Source: Syntrophus aciditrophicus SB
GTDB lineage: Bacteria; Desulfobacterota; Syntrophia; Syntrophales; Syntrophaceae
Reading direction: 5' to 3'
NCBI RefSeq assembly: GCF_000013405.1
Contig: NC_007759.1
Coordinates: 2,171,001 to 2,235,000 of the forward strand
Length of the DNA stretch: 64,000 bases
The translations under genes were made by a program, and so were the position numbers. Under the pieces are notes generated by a model. The model was not told the DNA's origin, searched no databases, and was given only the letters and a program-made list of their open reading frames with translations. Below are positions 5,423-39,417 of this stretch, piece by piece; within the stretch, counting starts at the first letter, position 1, and each line of letters begins with the position of its first letter.

Positions 5423-6271
5423 TTATAAATATTTTGCGTTAAAGGCATCGCACTGGCCGGGATCACCCGACTCGAAACCTCGTTTGAACCACCGGACCCT
5501 CTGTTCCGACGTGCCGTGGGTGAAGGCATCGGGTACGATTGTTCCCCGTGTCTGTTTCATGATCCGGTCATCACCGATGGCGCTTGCGGCCCCCAGGGCC
5601 TCTTCCAGATCACCGGATTCCAGAATGTTGCGCACCTTGTCCGCATGGCAGCCCCAGACACCGGCAAAACAGTCGGCCTGCAATTCCACCCGCACGGAAA
5701 GCTGGTTGGCCTCCACCTTGCTCATTTGCTGCATGGCCCTTTGGGTCTGATCGGTAATACCCAGGAGGTTCTGTACGTGATGACCCACTTCATGGGCAAT
5801 CACATAGGCCTGGGCAAAATCACCGGGTGCCTGAAAGCGGTTCTTCATATCTTCGAAAAAGCTCAAGTCTATATAAACCTTGCGATCACCAGGACAATAG
5901 AAGGGTCCCATGGCTGCCTGCGCGAATCCGCAGGCGGATTGAACAGCCCCGGAAAAAAGAACCAGCTTCGGCTCCTCATAGGTTCTTCCGCTGCGGCGGA
6001 ATATTTCGTGCCAGGTCGTTTCCGTATCGGCAAGGACGACGGATACAAATTGACTCGTGGGATCCTGTCGCACCGTCTGCTCCTGCTGAGACACGGGCGG
6101 AGGTCCGGTTTCCTGAACCTGTTGCAGGACGACCGATGGATCAATGCCGAAGTAGAGGCTCAGAAGCACCAGAATAACCGTACCGATCCCCGCCCCCGCA
6201 ATCCCGCGTTTGACGGTCACCCCTCGTCTGTCCTCAACATTCTCGCTCCTTCTTTGATTTTGCCAGCGCAT
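5423..6271 (-). CDS. Neutral zinc metallopeptidase, YpfJ family
   Basis: A 282-residue membrane-anchored protein. The N-terminus carries the family sequence NVEDRRG, then a single transmembrane helix (about 22-42), a Pro/Gln linker and a peptidase domain with the zinc motif HEVGHH (HExxH). Conserved LQADCFAGVWG and SEQRVRWFKRG blocks near the end confirm the family. The ATG at 6271 is preferred to 6280 because AAAGGA lies 8 bases before it. The active site should face the periplasm. Its substrate is unknown. Confidence 0.9.
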   Translation of the reverse strand: MRWQNQRRSENVEDRRGVTVKRGIAGAGIGTVILVLLSLYFGIDPSVVLQQVQETGPPPVSQQEQTVRQDPTSQFVSVVLADTETTWHEIFRRSGRTYEEPKLVLFSGAVQSACGFAQAAMGPFYCPGDRKVYIDLSFFEDMKNRFQAPGDFAQAYVIAHEVGHHVQNLLGITDQTQRAMQQMSKVEANQLSVRVELQADCFAGVWGCHADKVRNILESGDLEEALGAASAIGDDRIMKQTRGTIVPDAFTHGTSEQRVRWFKRGFESGDPGQCDAFNAKYL

Positions 6272-6692
6272 ACCGTTCATCCTTTCCCGGTGTTCCCTGC
6301 ATGACTTCTTCTAAAATCATGGCTGCAGAAAACGGTTTATTTCAGACTTTTCTTTCCTGAATTGACCTGATCACCAAAGGATTCTTTCCAATACCGTTCA
6401 CTTTTTATAACTCATTTTTTATAACTCATATCCGAAATCTTGGGAAGATGACTTTTTCAGCTTACATTATATCCGCATATCCGCCATGGTGGGGATGACG
6501 ACGTTCATTCCAGATTCCCTGTTTTCACGTCGACCCTTCCGGAAATTTGATTTTCCGTCATAATCTCTGTTAGTATTCTTTCAACTGTTTTTGGCTGTCA
6601 GGGCTTTGATAAGGGAAATCAGAAGAAAGAGGCAGGCCCCGGACTTTAAAAACGGGGTTTTCCTTCATGGAGAACAGGAAACTGGAAACACC
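6272..6692. other. Intergenic region between divergent genes
   Basis: About 420 bases with no convincing gene. It must hold promoters for both the YpfJ gene (minus) and the DUF4126 gene (plus). The only structure seen is a 14-base tandem duplication at 6402-6429. Confidence 0.5.
6402..6429. repeat. Two-copy tandem repeat, 14-base unit
   Basis: TTTTTATAACTCAT occurs twice with no gap. It is AT-rich and lies in the divergent intergenic region, so it may be a slippage product or a regulator site. Confidence 0.7.
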
Positions 6693-7268
6693 ATGGATAC
6701 TCTGATCGGAATGGCGATCGGCATCGGTTTGAGCGCCGCGTGCGGCTTCAGAGTCTTTGTCCCGTTGCTGATCATGAATCTTGCGACATCGAGTGGACAG
6801 ATTCACCTGTCGCCTGAATTTTCATGGATTGGAAGCCCTTATGCAACGGCAGCTTTCGCGACGGCAACCCTCATCGAAATTCTCTGTTATTACATACCCT
6901 GGGTCGATCACATTATCGATACGATCTCAACGCCAGCCGCAGTGATTGCCGGAACCGTCGTTACAGCGTCAACAGCGATCGAATTGTCTCCTTTTTTAAA
7001 GTGGACTCTGGCGCTGATTGCCGGTGGAGGAATAGCTGGACTGGTGCAGGGATCAACGGTCGCGCTTCGGGCAAAATCATCGATCTCCACGGGAGGAGCC
7101 GCAAATCCCCTGATTTCCACACTGGAGTTGATCGGCGCCATATTGACAGCCCTGCTCGCTGTCCTTGTTCCTGTTCTCTGCCTGATACTCGTCGGCTTTT
7201 TTTGTTTTGTTATCTTCCGGAAAGTCGGCCGCCTGATATTCGGAAGAATGAAATTTCAACAGAGATAA
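6693..7268 (+). CDS. DUF4126 family membrane protein
   Basis: A 191-residue integral membrane protein with about five hydrophobic segments. The opening GMAIGIGLSAACGFRVFVPLL and the glycine-rich segment around GGGIAGLVQGSTVALRA are typical of DUF4126. The ATG at 6693 starts the first membrane helix; the open frame upstream is not hydrophobic. It is followed after 20 bases by a second membrane protein (DUF2238), so the two are probably an operon. Function unknown. Confidence 0.85.
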   Translation: MDTLIGMAIGIGLSAACGFRVFVPLLIMNLATSSGQIHLSPEFSWIGSPYATAAFATATLIEILCYYIPWVDHIIDTISTPAAVIAGTVVTASTAIELSPFLKWTLALIAGGGIAGLVQGSTVALRAKSSISTGGAANPLISTLELIGAILTALLAVLVPVLCLILVGFFCFVIFRKVGRLIFGRMKFQQR

Positions 7269-7288
7269 CTTGTCGTGAGAAAAGACCA

Positions 7289-7906
7289 ATGTTAAAACAA
7301 AACCGGATTCTGATCCTTTATATCATCATCTTTTTTCTTGCCCTGATCCTCTCAGGAATCCATCCAAAAGATCAACTGGTCTGGTTCCTGGAGGTCTCGC
7401 CGGCGGTGATGGCTCTTGCCATCCTGGCCGTCAGTTTCAAAAAATTCCGTTTCTCGAATCTCGTTTACTTTCTCATTCTTGTCCACTCCATCGTTCTGAT
7501 GATCGGGGGGCACTGGACATATGCCGAAGTCCCTTTTTTCAACTGGCTAAGGGATATCGGGATATTCTCCCGCAATAATTATGACAAAGTTGGGCATTTC
7601 ATGCAGGGTTTTGTTCCCGTCCTGGTCGCGAGAGAAGTCATAATCCGGAAGGACATCGTCAATGGCGGGAGATGGACGAACTTTTTTTCCATCGCCGTAG
7701 TCCTGGCTGCAAGTGCGTGCTATGAATTTATCGAATGGTGGATTTCCCTTCTGAGTGGAAGCAGGGGCGACGCGTTTCTGGGAACGCAGGGATATACCTG
7801 GGACACTCAGTCCGACATGTTTTTCTGCCTGATCGGCGCCGTTGCTGCGATAATGACACTGGCCAGGATTCATGACAGGATGATTCGCGATTCACAGCAT
7901 TCATGA
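7289..7906 (+). CDS. DUF2238 (YjdF-like) inner-membrane protein
   Basis: A 205-residue protein with six or so transmembrane helices. Family landmarks are GGHWTYAEVPFF, RNNYDKVGHFMQGF, YEFIEWW and GTQGYTWDTQSDM, which put conserved acidic and His residues near the membrane surface. The start at 7289 follows the DUF4126 stop by 20 bases. A second, clearly related copy lies at 29309-29944 in this window. Biochemical role unknown. Confidence 0.88.
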   Translation: MLKQNRILILYIIIFFLALILSGIHPKDQLVWFLEVSPAVMALAILAVSFKKFRFSNLVYFLILVHSIVLMIGGHWTYAEVPFFNWLRDIGIFSRNNYDKVGHFMQGFVPVLVAREVIIRKDIVNGGRWTNFFSIAVVLAASACYEFIEWWISLLSGSRGDAFLGTQGYTWDTQSDMFFCLIGAVAAIMTLARIHDRMIRDSQHS

Positions 7907-8113
7907 GTTCTCATCACGAATCGGCCGGATTGAAAACTGTTTTCTCTGGCAATATCGGAATGGCCGCGGATTAACGGAGCATCAGGAGAACAATTTTTAA
8001 TTTGTTATTTTGACCGACCTACAGTATTTATATTTTATGGTCGACAGAGCGATGAAACCGTCATCTGAAAACACAATACCGGATTGCCCGCATTCCAAAG
8101 GAGGAATACAAGC

Positions 8114-8554
8114 ATGAAGACTTTCCGTATTTTTCTCCTTGGTGTCTTTTCCCTCTTCTTTTTCAGCGTCGCTAGCCGGGCGGCTGACTGGCAGTTTTTC
8201 AGTGAGAGTCCGCGCGGCGATTACTTTTACGACGCCTCAGGCATGAAAACAATATCGAAAAACGTCATAAGGGTTTTGGTTAAGCTGGATATCACTCCGG
8301 AAGAATGTGAACGGTGGCATGCCAGATTCGGAGAGAAATATCGTGATTTCAGTCACGAGGAAGAGTTGAAGGAAATCAACTGTTCCACTAAAAAGGCCAG
8401 GGTCATTTCCGTTACAGAATACGATGAAAATGGCGAGGTTATCGACAGAGTCCATTTTGGTGACACATCCGGGTGGGACCGCATTGCCCCCGGCACTGTA
8501 AATCACGCTTTATCGAAAGTCGTTTGCAAAAGGCAGAGAGCGGGAAAGAGATAG
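8114..8554 (+). CDS. Secreted surface-adhesin protein E-like protein
   Basis: A 146-residue exported protein: signal peptide to about residue 24 (ends SRAAD), then WQFF, a YFYDASGM strand, an EINCSTKKARV block and a final W-D-x-I-x-P-G-T ... C motif. This layout, with two Cys that could pair, matches the small surface-adhesin E-like domain of many proteobacteria. AGGAGG precedes the ATG at 8114. Probably periplasmic or surface-associated; no partner gene is evident. Confidence 0.7.
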   Translation: MKTFRIFLLGVFSLFFFSVASRAADWQFFSESPRGDYFYDASGMKTISKNVIRVLVKLDITPEECERWHARFGEKYRDFSHEEELKEINCSTKKARVISVTEYDENGEVIDRVHFGDTSGWDRIAPGTVNHALSKVVCKRQRAGKR

Positions 8555-8640
8555 TGAGGCAACAAAACATTAAAACAAAATAACCGAGGGCGTCAGGTCG
8601 CATCACCGGCAGATGGATGCGCAGGGAACAGGGAAACTCC

Positions 8641-8766
8641 ATGATTACGATTAACAGAATAGTCGATACGATACTGATTTACTGGCGGGAAATTCCGGAC
8701 TGGGTGGTTTTTGGCTTTATAATCGTTATAGTTATCCTTGGCCTTAAATTCGTGCTCAAACCTTGA
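8641..8766 (+). CDS. Small single-pass membrane protein (41 aa)
   Basis: A 41-codon frame: a short amphipathic N-terminus (MITINRIVDTILIYW), then a hydrophobic helix (FGFIIVIVILGLKFVL) ending with KP and a stop. GGGAAACTCC lies before the ATG. The composition is that of a real small membrane protein rather than random sequence. It sits 86 bases after the adhesin-E-like gene and 185 bases before porB. Confidence 0.5.
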   Translation: MITINRIVDTILIYWREIPDWVVFGFIIVIVILGLKFVLKP

Positions 8767-8951
8767 AGACGGCATAGCGAAGCGGAACGCGGAACAGGGG
8801 GGGAACAGAAAAAACCGGCGGGATACAAGGCCTGAAATTAAAAAGCACACACTGATCAAGCGGGAAGTTCAACAAACAAGACCTTTTTTGGAATGGGACA
8901 GTTCGCAACCAGGTGTCTCTCTCATTCCTTGACGGAAGATGGATACTGAAA

Positions 8952-9827
8952 ATGGACATCCCCAGCGAAGAATACCTGCTTAAGTGCTCATCCTCGTGTG
9001 CCGGATGCAGCGACTCTCTTACCCTGCGTTACGTGCTCAAGGCAGCGGGACCTGATACGGTCCTGATCGTGCCGGCCTGCTGCACGAGTGTGATTCAGGG
9101 CATGTACCCGCAAACGGCATTCAACGTTCCCGTATATAACATCGCTTTCGGGGCCGCCGCTGCCTGCGCTTCCGGCATGTCGAACGCCCTCCGCGCCCTG
9201 GGCAGAAAGACCAGCGTGATCGTTTACGCCGGTGACGGCGGCACACTCGATATCGGGATACAGGCTCTTTCCGGCGCCTTTGAAAGAGGCACTGATTTTT
9301 TATATATCTGCTACGACAACGAAGCATACGGAAATACCGGCATGCAGCGCTCCGGAGCAACCCCCCTCGGCGCCCGGACAACAACGACCCCCTCAGGAAA
9401 AATGGATGTAAAAAAAGACATCGACGCGATTGTCGCGGCCCACAGCCCGCCCTACATGGCAACGGCCTGTCCCGCATACCCCCGGGATCTCTTCCAGAAA
9501 GTCCGGAAAGCACTCATGTTCCGGGGCCCATCCTTTCTTCACGTGCTTGCCCCCTGCCCTCCCGGCTGGCGTTTCTCACCGGAAAAGTCCGTTGAATTGG
9601 GAAAACTCGCCGTAAAATCCTGCATGTGGGTGCTTTACGAACGCGAGCACGGCAAACTGTCCCTCTCCTCACCTTCCAGAACAGCCATGAAAAAGCCGAT
9701 TCCTCTCGAAGAATATCTGGCGCCTCAGGGTCGCTTCGAGGGAATTAACGCGGAAACACTTGAAGCTCTCAAGCAGAACATCGCAGAGAGCATAAAAAGG
9801 CTGACAGCAGAGGAGGCGGGAGGATGA
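8952..9827 (+). CDS. porB: 2-oxoacid:ferredoxin oxidoreductase, beta subunit
   Basis: The thiamine-pyrophosphate subunit of a pyruvate (or related 2-oxoacid):ferredoxin oxidoreductase, which decarboxylates the acid to acyl-CoA and passes electrons to ferredoxin, or runs in reverse to fix CO2. Visible are the cluster cysteines (CAGC near the N-terminus and a CC pair after VLIVPA), the TPP/Mg motif GDGGTLDIG and the NEAYGNTGMQRSG loop. Length 291 fits. The ATG at 8952 starts at the conserved N-terminus; a GTG at 8913 is a weaker choice. Its stop overlaps the porA start, the first of a series of tight overlaps through porD. Confidence 0.9.
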   Translation: MDIPSEEYLLKCSSSCAGCSDSLTLRYVLKAAGPDTVLIVPACCTSVIQGMYPQTAFNVPVYNIAFGAAAACASGMSNALRALGRKTSVIVYAGDGGTLDIGIQALSGAFERGTDFLYICYDNEAYGNTGMQRSGATPLGARTTTTPSGKMDVKKDIDAIVAAHSPPYMATACPAYPRDLFQKVRKALMFRGPSFLHVLAPCPPGWRFSPEKSVELGKLAVKSCMWVLYEREHGKLSLSSPSRTAMKKPIPLEEYLAPQGRFEGINAETLEALKQNIAESIKRLTAEEAGG

Positions 9828-35709: not shown

Positions 35710-35738
35710 TTGACACACAGAAAGGAAAGCCCTATACA
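35710..35738 (+). promoter_or_regulatory. Sigma-70 promoter of the CsoR-like operon
   Basis: TTGACA (35710-35715) and TATACA (35733-35738) are separated by exactly 17 bases. A start at about 35745 would leave a leader of about 13 bases before the ATG at 35758. Confidence 0.8.
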
Positions 35739-35753
35739 TACCCCATGGGGGTA
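35739..35753 (+). promoter_or_regulatory. CsoR-family operator
   Basis: TACCCCATGGGGGTA is a GC-boxed inverted repeat of the kind CsoR/RcnR/FrmR proteins bind (T-A, run of C, A-T, run of G, T-A). It starts right after the -10 box and covers the predicted start site; its G-run also lies where the ribosome site is expected. The protein encoded 4 bases further is a CsoR-like repressor, so autorepression is likely. Confidence 0.75.
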
Positions 35754-35757
35754 TATT

Positions 35758-36021
35758 ATGAGTCAGGAAAGAAAAAAAATTATTGGCCGTTTGCGAAGGA
35801 TTGAAGGGCAAATTCGGGGACTTCAGAGGATGGTTGAAAGCGAAGCACCCTGCGTAGATATTCTCACACAGGTCTCAGCTGTTACTTCTGCCATGAAAAA
35901 AACGGGGAATGAAATTGTCCAGAACCACTTGCAGCAATGTATTTCCGAAACCTCTCAGGGAAACGATGAGGCACTGGAAAATTTTAAGAAAGCTTTAGCC
36001 CGATATATCCGCATGGCATAA
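35758..36021 (+). CDS. CsoR/FrmR-family metal- or thiol-sensing repressor
   Basis: An 87-residue all-helical repressor with RLRRIEGQIRGLQRMV at the DNA-binding N-terminus and the sensor residues Cys32, His57 and Cys61 (numbered from the ATG at 35758), matching the C-H-C copper triad of CsoR rather than FrmR (which lacks the second Cys) or RcnR. Copper binding is inferred; a persulfide role (CstR-like) cannot be excluded. The operator overlaps its own promoter. It is 14 bases ahead of the Fe-S protein gene, which it should also control. Confidence 0.88.
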   Translation: MSQERKKIIGRLRRIEGQIRGLQRMVESEAPCVDILTQVSAVTSAMKKTGNEIVQNHLQQCISETSQGNDEALENFKKALARYIRMA

Positions 36022-36035
36022 AGAAGGAGTAAAAG

Positions 36036-37046
36036 ATGGAAGCGGAAAAAATATCAAAGATCAGTCGTCGTTCCCTCCTGAAGGCATCTACTGGGGCATT
36101 GGCCATTCCGGGCTTAGCATTCCCAGGAACGGTCCAGGCAGATGTAAAAGAACAACTGGCAACTCTGATTGATCTCAGTCGATGCAATGGTTGCGTGGAC
36201 CTTGCGAAACCGTCCTGCGTCACCGTTTGTAAAGAGATCAACAAAAACACCATTCCGGCGATTGCTGATCCCATTCCCGTGCCATGGCCACGCAAGACAG
36301 TCGAGGACTGGTCCAGGAAAAGGGAGGTCAGCAACCGCTTGACACCCTATAATTTCATTTATGTTCACAAGGCCGACATCGTCTGGAAAGGAAAGCCGCA
36401 AACCATTTATGTTCCAAGGAGGTGCATGCACTGCGACAACCCGGCATGCGCAACAATCTGTCCCTTTTCGGCAAATCATAAGCAAAGGAACGGAGCGGTG
36501 GTGATCGATCAGGATTTCTGTTTCGGTGGGGCCAAATGCAGGACGGTCTGTCCCTGGGAGATCCCCCAGCGGCAGTCCGGTGTAGGCATTTATCTGCACG
36601 TTCTGCCTGCCCTGATGGGAAACGGTGTCATGTACAAATGCGACCTCTGCAATCAGCGATTAAAGGAGGGAAAGCCACCCGGCTGTGTGGAGGCCTGTCC
36701 AAGGGAAGCCATGATCATCGGGCCCAGAAAAGAGATTTATGCAGTAGCGGAAGAACGGATTAAGGCCATGGATGGTTACATATACGGAAAGGAAGAAAAC
36801 GGCGGGACGGCAACCCTGTATGTATCCCCGGTTCCCTTTGAACTGATCAATGAAACCATGAAGAAAAAACCGGGCCAGCCCGACATGAAGCCAGGTGTCG
36901 AACGGCGAATGGCAGGAACGGATCCCGCAGGGAAACTGGCGTTGATTGCGCCGGTACTGGGAATTGCTGCCAGCGCTGCAGCGGGCTTTAACTGGCTGTC
37001 CCGGCGGAAGCAGAAGGTGCAGGAAGAGGAAAAAGACAATGGCTGA
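36036..37046 (+). CDS. Tat-exported four-[4Fe-4S] electron-transfer subunit with C-terminal anchor
   Basis: A 336-residue protein of the DmsB/FdoH/HybA type. The N-terminus has a twin-arginine signal (SRRSLLK), followed by four Cys clusters: CNGCVDLAKPSCVTVC, CMHCDNPACATICP, CFGGAKCRTVCP and CDLCNQRLKEGKPPGCVEACP. A transmembrane helix near the C-terminus (LIAPVLGIAASAAAGF) anchors it with clusters in the periplasm. In homologous enzymes this subunit links a molybdopterin or hydrogenase catalytic subunit to a cytochrome b; no such catalytic gene is next to it. Confidence 0.9.
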   Translation: MEAEKISKISRRSLLKASTGALAIPGLAFPGTVQADVKEQLATLIDLSRCNGCVDLAKPSCVTVCKEINKNTIPAIADPIPVPWPRKTVEDWSRKREVSNRLTPYNFIYVHKADIVWKGKPQTIYVPRRCMHCDNPACATICPFSANHKQRNGAVVIDQDFCFGGAKCRTVCPWEIPQRQSGVGIYLHVLPALMGNGVMYKCDLCNQRLKEGKPPGCVEACPREAMIIGPRKEIYAVAEERIKAMDGYIYGKEENGGTATLYVSPVPFELINETMKKKPGQPDMKPGVERRMAGTDPAGKLALIAPVLGIAASAAAGFNWLSRRKQKVQEEEKDNG

Positions 37047-37743
37047 AAAGATTTTGCAAGAAAAGGGTCTCGTTGTCCGTCATGGAAGCGTTGAATTAAT
37101 CGAGCACTGGGGTATTGCCCTTTCCGGACTGGTTCTACTGCTATCAGGGCTCTTTGAGCTTCCCATGGCCAATCGATATTACATCACTTCGCTGCCGGGG
37201 TTTTCCTGGTCCGGGGATTATTTCATATCATTGCAGATACATTATATCGCTTCAATTCCCTTCATTGCCCTTGCATTCTTTCATCTCGTTTACCATGGTA
37301 TTCGGGGAGATCGGGGACTGATCCCGCAAAAGGGGGACCTGCATGCATCCATAGATGTCATCAAAAGCTTTTTCGGTAAGGGTGAGGAACCGCCTTTTCA
37401 AAAATATCTGCCCGAGCAGCGTCTGGCTTACGTCGGAATGGCTGCGATCATTGCCATGCTGATTCTGTCCGGCCTGATCAAAACCTTCAAGAATGTTTAT
37501 GCTCCAGATATGCCTCTGGCAATCGTCCTGACTGCCACATGGATACATAACATTCTCTTCATCCTTTTTATCCTTGCCTTTCTGGGGCATATCGGTGCGA
37601 TCGCTCTGAAGCCAAACCGCCCGATGGTCCGGGGAATCTTCACAGGCGCCGTTCGACTCGATTACGCCCGGCGCCGTCATCCCCTGTGGCTGGCGGAGAT
37701 CAAGCGGAAAGGAAGGTGTCAATCAAAAGGGGAAGAAGACTAA
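37039..37743 (+). CDS. Formate dehydrogenase/hydrogenase-type cytochrome b
   Basis: A 234-residue membrane protein with four helices and the His ligands of di-haem cytochrome b556: VELIEHWG (helix 1), SLQIHYIASIPFIALAFFHLVYHG (helix 2) and WIHNILFILFILAFLGHIG (helix 4). The start overlaps the Fe-S gene by 8 bases. With its partner it should take electrons from the periplasm to menaquinone, or the reverse. Confidence 0.88.
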   Translation: MAEKILQEKGLVVRHGSVELIEHWGIALSGLVLLLSGLFELPMANRYYITSLPGFSWSGDYFISLQIHYIASIPFIALAFFHLVYHGIRGDRGLIPQKGDLHASIDVIKSFFGKGEEPPFQKYLPEQRLAYVGMAAIIAMLILSGLIKTFKNVYAPDMPLAIVLTATWIHNILFILFILAFLGHIGAIALKPNRPMVRGIFTGAVRLDYARRRHPLWLAEIKRKGRCQSKGEED

Positions 37744-38104: not shown

Positions 38105-39417
38105 GGTTCATCCGACTAAAGCGTACTTGGCTTCATGAATGGCCATGATTTTAAGTTTGAAGAACTCGATATCCCGGAACCCATAGGCCATCCGTTTCAT
38201 GGTTTTGATTTTATTGTTTGTGCCTTCCAAGGGAGCCGACGAGATGCGGTAATCATAATAAGAGAGGATACCGGATTGAAATGCGGCAAGTGACTTCGCA
38301 AACTTTTTCAACATTTTTATCCCGGAAGTTTCCGCCCTCTTGATCCAATCAACCAATACCAGGCGTGCTTTTTTCTTGGTTGGCTGTAACCAGACCTGTC
38401 GGAGATCTTCTTTCAGGTAATAGGCGCATGAAAGTGGCTGATTTAGCTGGAGGGCATCGTTCAAGCGGGCCTTTTCAGCTTTGGATGAATCAAGATTTTC
38501 CGGATTTTTCAGAAGAAGCCAGCGGGTACCCTTCAGGACTTTCTTCTGAAGGAGATCTTTTGCCTCTCGATAAAGGTCTCTTCTTAGCCCGGACAATTTG
38601 TCGTTGAAGAGCTTGATGACATGAAAATGGTCAAAAACAATCGTCGCTTTCGGAAGATGAGTCGATACAGCGCTGATATAAGCGGGAGACATATCCATGG
38701 CAACGGCTTCAATCTTGGCTTCGGCACGTTTGACCTTTTTCCAGAAAGAGTCAAGCGCATCGGCTCCCTTGCCATCACCGACATAGACGATCGTCCCTTT
38801 GGTCATATCCAAAACAACAGTCAGATACCGATGCCCTTTGCGAATCGAGATCTCATCGATGGCAATTCTCCGAAGATCCTTCAGGCAGGGCTTGGAAAAC
38901 CTCTTCGTCAAATCCCGTTTCTGAATTTCCTTGATCGCGTCCCAGGATACCGACAGATGTGCGGCTACATCCTGGATCGTCATGTGTTTCGACAATTCCA
39001 AGGCATATCGCTCAAAAGCACGGGTGTAAGAAAATCGGGGGTCAGCAAATCCCAGCGACACTTGACGAATACTGCCGCAACGAAGGCAACCCACCCGCTG
39101 AACGCTGAGATCGAAGAACACATTCTTGAAACCGATGGGAATGCTTCGAAACCGTCTCCTGGTCGTTCCTCGCATGATGATCTCCCGGCTTCTACAGACT
39201 GAACAACAAAGCTTGCTCCTTTTGTGGCGTATGGTGAACGTGATACTTCTTCCTTCATATCGCGTCCTGACATAATCGTAGCCGACTAGGCTGAATCCGT
39301 GGTAAAGAAGACTTGTGGACATGCTTCCCCTCCGTTAATTGGAAATCTTCGAACAATTTCCTCTTGGGGTGTATGTCCATTTTTTTCAATATAAAGTACG
39401 CATCAACCGGATGAACC
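38105..39417 (-). mobile_element. ISL3-family insertion sequence
   Basis: 1313 bp. The ends are 24-base inverted repeats with 20 matches (GGTTCATCCG ... GCGTACTT), flanked by a perfect 8-bp duplication, the size expected for ISL3. It carries one complete transposase gene and interrupts a small exported-protein gene. The unaltered duplication points to a fairly recent insertion. Confidence 0.95.
38108..39322 (-). CDS. ISL3-family transposase
   Basis: A 404-residue DDE transposase that reads complete: an N-terminal zinc finger (CCSVCRSREI, CLRCGS), a HTH region (SVSWDAIKEIQ), then IAIDEISIRKGHRYL, AVAMDMSPAYISAV and VFDHFHVIKLFND, and APLEGTNNKIKTMKRMAYGFRD with the final Glu. Stop lies 4 bases inside the left end of the element. 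Confidence 0.95.
   Translation of the reverse strand: MSTSLLYHGFSLVGYDYVRTRYEGRSITFTIRHKRSKLCCSVCRSREIIMRGTTRRRFRSIPIGFKNVFFDLSVQRVGCLRCGSIRQVSLGFADPRFSYTRAFERYALELSKHMTIQDVAAHLSVSWDAIKEIQKRDLTKRFSKPCLKDLRRIAIDEISIRKGHRYLTVVLDMTKGTIVYVGDGKGADALDSFWKKVKRAEAKIEAVAMDMSPAYISAVSTHLPKATIVFDHFHVIKLFNDKLSGLRRDLYREAKDLLQKKVLKGTRWLLLKNPENLDSSKAEKARLNDALQLNQPLSCAYYLKEDLRQVWLQPTKKKARLVLVDWIKRAETSGIKMLKKFAKSLAAFQSGILSYYDYRISSAPLEGTNNKIKTMKRMAYGFRDIEFFKLKIMAIHEAKYALVG

Follow-up and report, generated by a model that had tools for sequence, protein, structure and literature searches.

A CsoR-family repressor dedicated to an orphan Fe-S protein/cytochrome b pair in anaerobic bacteria: a possible response to reactive sulfur

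Introduction

Copper-sensing members of the CsoR family combine a Cys-His-Cys ligand set with second-shell Tyr and Glu residues, and among these residues the tyrosine has the greatest value in predicting a response to Cu(I) (PMC4235346). CstR instead senses persulfide, which it does through two cysteines (PMC9774590; PMC9405070), and in E. faecalis it regulates rhodaneses and a CoA-disulfide reductase-rhodanese (PMC9405070). It is unusual to find a regulator of this kind in charge of a quinone-linked relay, since such proteins normally control sulfur enzymes or metal pumps. Here, we describe an operon of that sort in the window, by which we mean the whole 64,000-nucleotide stretch of Syntrophus aciditrophicus SB DNA that was analysed. 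The repressor, a dedicated operator, and a two-gene membrane relay made up of an Fe-S protein and a cytochrome b occur as a unit across a group of anaerobes. Our best reading, to which we assign a probability of about 0.5, is that a CstR-like sulfane-sulfur sensor derepresses a menaquinol-linked periplasmic electron relay. We found no description of a CsoR-FeS-cytb operon in the open-access literature, where absence is no proof that none exists.

Results

The operon comprises three co-directional genes on the forward strand, encoding an 87-residue CsoR-family repressor (35758-36021), a 336-residue Fe-S protein (36036-37046), and a 234-residue cytochrome b (37039-37743), with the last two genes overlapping by 8 bp. 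Its neighbors are unrelated to it: upstream are a NADH-pyrophosphatase-like NUDIX gene, an HxlR regulator, and a glyoxalase, and downstream a gene for a 123-residue protein with no Pfam match is followed by an ISL3-type transposase gene on the reverse strand (38108-39322). The predicted promoter (35710-35738, forward strand) had been called perfect in an earlier, sequence-only reading of this DNA, a description that suits the -35 element TTGACA (35710-35715) but not the -10 element TATACA (35733-35738), which lies beyond a 17-nt spacer and matches at 4 of 6 positions. The palindromic operator proposed in the same reading is real. It occupies 35739-35753, assigned to neither strand, and its sequence TACCCCATGGGGGTA pairs the half-sites TACCCC and GGGGTA around a central ATG; it abuts the -10 element, ends 4 nt before the csoR start codon, and is the sole exact occurrence of the pattern TACCCCNNNGGGGTA in the whole 3,179,300-bp genome, which is a single contig.

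Both elements recur in relatives. TTGACA is present in 30 of 30 readable CsoR-FeS loci, a count that includes the window, and as a rule it lies 22-24 nt ahead of the operator; the operator stands at the same place in all 30 (exact in 19 and with 1-2 mismatches in 11, again counting the window). When 500 bp upstream of the CsoR-less loci were examined, a site within 1 mismatch appeared in 1 of 84. This conservation reads as a strong phylogenetic footprint of an autoregulated operon. Five loci belonging to one clade carry two tandem CsoR-type operators upstream of CsoR, one of them inside the -35/-10 spacer.

A Pfam profile search identified the window CsoR as the sole PF02583 protein of its genome (100.9 bits against a cut-off of 22.8; E = 5e-29), and this match and the gene order bear out the proposal that a CsoR-family repressor with Cys32, His57, and Cys61 heads an electron-transfer module. 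In a comparison sample of 60 genomes of the order, PF02583 proteins occur in 11, one in each, and 10 of these 11 lie directly upstream of this Fe-S gene (Fisher p = 0.006, shared ancestry ignored). The regulator is therefore dedicated to the Fe-S/cytochrome b pair, and it also precedes the pair at three loci outside the order (L167, L175, and L180). The one exception, genome G016, lacks the pair and has a CsoR that is 38.6% identical to that of the window and belongs to a separate lineage. At its locus (L240, about 6159-9205), this copper-type CsoR (Tyr-Cys, His, Cys) is preceded by a C-rich palindrome unlike that of the window and lies near a CopA-like heavy-metal ATPase with HMA domains.

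The presence of CsoR is phylogenetically clustered, because the minimum of 13 changes that it requires on the Fe-S tree is fewer than in any of 500 shuffles, but it has been repeatedly gained or lost, with some of the apparent absences being contig ends. Among CsoR-less relatives, some pairs are found beside divergent Crp/Fnr-type genes or downstream of PAS-sigma54 activators, a variety that points to a stand-alone module to which different regulators are attached. With many relatives lacking CsoR and some having these other regulators, the signal need not be sulfur everywhere.

The Fe-S protein, which has Fer4 Pfam matches, opens with a Tat motif (SRRSLLK) and closes with a long C-terminal helix, predicted at residues 297-334 as a membrane anchor; these features come from the alignment and from an AF2 model of modest confidence (mean pLDDT 62.5, with the cluster region largely below 50). 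The Tat signal and the four ferredoxin-type motifs uphold most of the earlier description of a Tat-exported four-cluster protein, which has to be qualified in that only 15 cysteines are invariant in an alignment of 107 non-redundant sequences. The third motif is C-[FL]-G-G-A-K-C (C-x-G-G-A-K-C in its general form), so one of the four clusters would be without one Cys ligand and have three. Gly165 of this motif, which is Gly in 105 of the 107 sequences and Asp in 2, occupies the alignment column that holds Trp in NarH and Cys in FdnH and PsrB. Because NarH, with the same non-Cys position, carries one 3Fe-4S cluster alongside three 4Fe-4S clusters (PMC3475470), a 3Fe-4S cluster is likely here by analogy. 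The protein resembles HmcB, HybA, and FdnH, yet it falls below every NCBIfam cut-off, reaching at most 151 bits against 263-420 for the nearest models.

The cytochrome b, of FdnI/Ni_hydr_CYTB type, matches PF01292 (E = 1.5e-19) and has four invariant histidines (23, 68, 170, and 184) in 88 of 88 sequences, the last two being 14 residues apart. This pattern is as expected of FdnI-type di-haem proteins and agrees with the original di-haem assignment. Against NCBIfam the protein scores 50 bits where the cut-offs are 116-339, and the best names are those of formate dehydrogenase gamma subunits.

No molybdoenzyme or hydrogenase large subunit lies beside the pair in the window, as had been noted, and a recurrent catalytic alpha or large subunit is absent generally across more than 100 loci. 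A search for conserved neighbourhoods, as the sequence-only reading had proposed, recovered CsoR-FeS-cytb repeatedly, and in general the relatives showed no co-regulated catalytic subunit. An orphan catalytic partner elsewhere in the genome was considered and rejected, with molybdopterin and NiFe searches giving no clear candidate and the NiFe-like and short Mo proteins of the genome showing no sign of partnership with the pair. The genome encodes two FdnG-type formate dehydrogenases, both with their own cytochrome b subunits and one with a clearly called beta subunit. It also encodes a 683-residue molybdopterin oxidoreductase (L134:6718-8766; G000:C1:about 3017717-3019766) that has no obvious Tat signal or adjacent beta or gamma partners.

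At two loci, L189 (4670-9133) and L158, the Fe-S gene is preceded at a distance of 21 bp by a gene for a pyridine-nucleotide disulfide reductase, and behind cytochrome b comes a multihaem cytochrome gene, which in L189 is of the octahaem Cytochrome_cB type. An octahaem cytochrome is present in few lineages only and was rejected as a universal partner, and a search of the window's own genome for PF11783, run without a positive control, returned no match.

These surroundings bear on an alternative that we regard as possible but less likely, namely that the pair connects menaquinone with a periplasmic formate dehydrogenase, hydrogenase, or multihaem cytochromes encoded elsewhere, while CsoR simply senses general thiol stress. 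Such a shared role would suit a pair whose nearest named relatives are HmcB, HybA, and FdnH/FdnI, which in some lineages has an octahaem Cytochrome_cB or disulfide reductase gene beside it, and which shares its genome with a multihaem cytochrome/rhodanese cluster. Both formate dehydrogenases are already supplied with cytochrome b subunits, however, multihaem neighbours occur at few loci, and a three-Cys cluster would be unusual for low-potential donors.

The X-Y-Z set of the window CsoR is Cys32, His57, and Cys61, the Cys-His-Cys arrangement of copper-type CsoR, but finding this motif in a single family member is no proof that copper is sensed. Position A is Pro31, and in the orthologues it is mostly Pro and never Tyr. 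The second-shell Glu position appears as Asn in the InrS alignment, an assignment made uncertain by gap placement. Both cysteines are kept in 30 of 31 orthologues, with one lacking the first, whereas position Y varies among those 30 (Tyr in 11, His in 10, Asn in 8, and Arg in 1), so that the histidine is replaced in 20 orthologues that keep the same operator and operon. Since the orthologues retain both cysteines and not the histidine, selection has kept the dithiol rather than the metal site. Asn at position Y is also found in the solved chains 7mq1 and 7mq2 of the CsoR fold, the latter described as CstR (PMC9774590).

On these grounds the label of copper-type sensor given to the protein at first does not stand, and copper regulation was rejected: the predictive Tyr is absent and the His is not conserved. 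The window CsoR could still bind metal, at least in this species, because it retains its own His57. It is nonetheless unlikely that Cu(I) or Ni(II) is the signal through which CsoR would switch on a relay that eases metal damage or passes electrons to metals, even though the X-Y-Z set is complete and the combination of Pro at A and His at Y recalls InrS, a sensor of Ni(II) (PMC4235346). In addition to the two residue differences, the real copper-type CsoR of the order sits near a CopA-like ATPase and behind another palindrome. As for a copper exporter or chaperone, the operon contains no ATPase, and the pattern search of the 3,179,300-bp genome found no second exact operator that could serve metal pumps. 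The wider suggestion of a metal- or thiol-responsive quinone relay thus loses its copper part, and the thiol-responsive part fits the conserved dithiol. We file the window regulator neither as a copper CsoR, two defining features of which it lacks, nor as a CstR, given that it keeps His57 and that the persulfide response is an analogy; it belongs to PF02583 and may act like CstR.

Some relatives have sulfur genes next to the pair. In six cases cytochrome b is followed by a double rhodanese of periplasmic type, a CoA-disulfide reductase-rhodanese adjoins the pair at six other loci, and the gene order at L175 is TusA-DsrE-DsrE-CsoR-FeS-cytb. The Pfam family seen most often in the gene immediately downstream is rhodanese, with 6 of 55; among 110 distant genes it accounts for at most 1, a value assumed because the list of distant genes gives only families with at least two members. 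The rhodanese neighbours come mostly from related genomes, and the Fisher tests ignore shared ancestry. Genomes with the CsoR version have a periplasmic rhodanese modestly more often, in 8 of 10 against 6 of 20 pair-bearing genomes (p = 0.019, ancestry ignored), and the pair alone shows no significant genome-wide co-occurrence with rhodanese (p = 0.18). Most loci have no sulfur gene beside the pair. The window is among them, with no sulfurtransferase or sulfide-oxidation gene in its operon, and the genome's rhodanese homologue is located far away in a multihaem cytochrome cluster. In the same genome, at G000:C1:93771-100454 (L246), multihaem c cytochromes with 10, 7, and 9 CxxCH motifs, of which the one with 9 also carries a fused cytochrome b561 domain, are interleaved with two exported double-rhodanese genes.

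Discussion

Taken as a set, the repressor and relay would seem to answer reactive sulfur and not copper. By analogy with CstR, a tetramer of the CsoR fold would sit on the operator abutting the -10 element, whose position and conservation we observed, and repress its own operon. Persulfide or polysulfide would then join Cys32 of one subunit to Cys61 of another, as in the di-, tri-, or tetrasulfide bridges that define CstR, whereupon the repressor would leave and the Fe-S protein and cytochrome b would be made. The signal peptide suggests that Tat carries the Fe-S protein across the membrane in folded form, and the C-terminal helix and the conserved histidines of its partner suggest that it is held on the outward-facing side of that membrane beside cytochrome b. 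Electrons would most likely pass from menaquinol through the haems to a high-potential three-Cys cluster and on to an acceptor in the periplasm, for which sulfane sulfur carried by rhodanese, or polysulfide, is the probable candidate. Such a relay would remove excess reactive sulfur or excess quinol. We identified no catalytic site for the reduction of sulfur.

A bolder version, which we consider doubtful, makes the pair itself a molybdenum-free menaquinol:sulfane-sulfur reductase, induced by its substrate via the CstR-like repressor, with periplasmic rhodanese delivering sulfur for reduction at the invariant C-x-GGAK-C three-Cys cluster or a neighbouring site. Electron flow in the opposite direction, with the oxidation of periplasmic sulfide or persulfide feeding the menaquinone pool in place of a sulfide:quinone oxidoreductase, is improbable, for although FdnI-type cytochromes normally reduce quinone, the pair lacks both a flavin and any known site for sulfide oxidation, a three-Cys cluster like that of NarH would be typical of quinol-oxidising complexes, and the hosts are strict anaerobes. 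That scheme would share its regulator logic with CstR operons, which include sulfide:quinone oxidoreductases (PMC10318464).

If the preferred reading of a sulfane-sulfur sensor controlling a menaquinol-linked relay is true, it would connect a regulator of persulfide type with the quinone pool of syntrophic and sulfidogenic anaerobes, which live near the limits set by thermodynamics. It would give a function to a widespread orphan Fe-S/cytochrome b pair and show how such anaerobes sense and dispose of reactive sulfur without oxygen.

Among known electron-transfer proteins, HybA/HmcB, FdnH, and NarH share the four ferredoxin-type motifs of the window protein, HybA also has a Tat signal, and NarH likewise lacks the second Cys of motif III, with Trp where the window has Gly; unlike all of these, the pair has no catalytic alpha subunit and scores below the NCBIfam cut-offs. 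The same two differences, the lack of a linked alpha subunit and the low NCBIfam scores, separate its cytochrome b from FdnI, the gamma subunit of formate dehydrogenase, which it otherwise resembles in its PF01292 domain and in four invariant histidines with the last two 14 residues apart.

With the copper sensor CsoR and the nickel sensor InrS, the window regulator has in common the fold, the Cys-His-Cys set, and a G/C-tract palindromic type of operator, but it differs in having no Tyr at A, a histidine that orthologues do not conserve, an operon without a metal pump, and a single operator. The likeness to CstR and the cst-like operons of S. aureus and E. faecalis extends to the CsoR fold, the two conserved cysteines, an operator before the regulator's own operon, Asn or another residue often replacing His in orthologues, and, near the pair in some relatives, rhodanese and CoA-disulfide reductase-rhodanese genes; in contrast to CstR, the window CsoR keeps its His, and the main targets are a Tat-exported Fe-S protein and cytochrome b. 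TTHA1953 of Thermus thermophilus, which controls Sox genes, lies far from its targets, and these are Sox proteins rather than an Fe-S/cytochrome b pair, but it too is a CsoR-family repressor placed over sulfur electron metabolism, the role that we propose here (PMC10318464).
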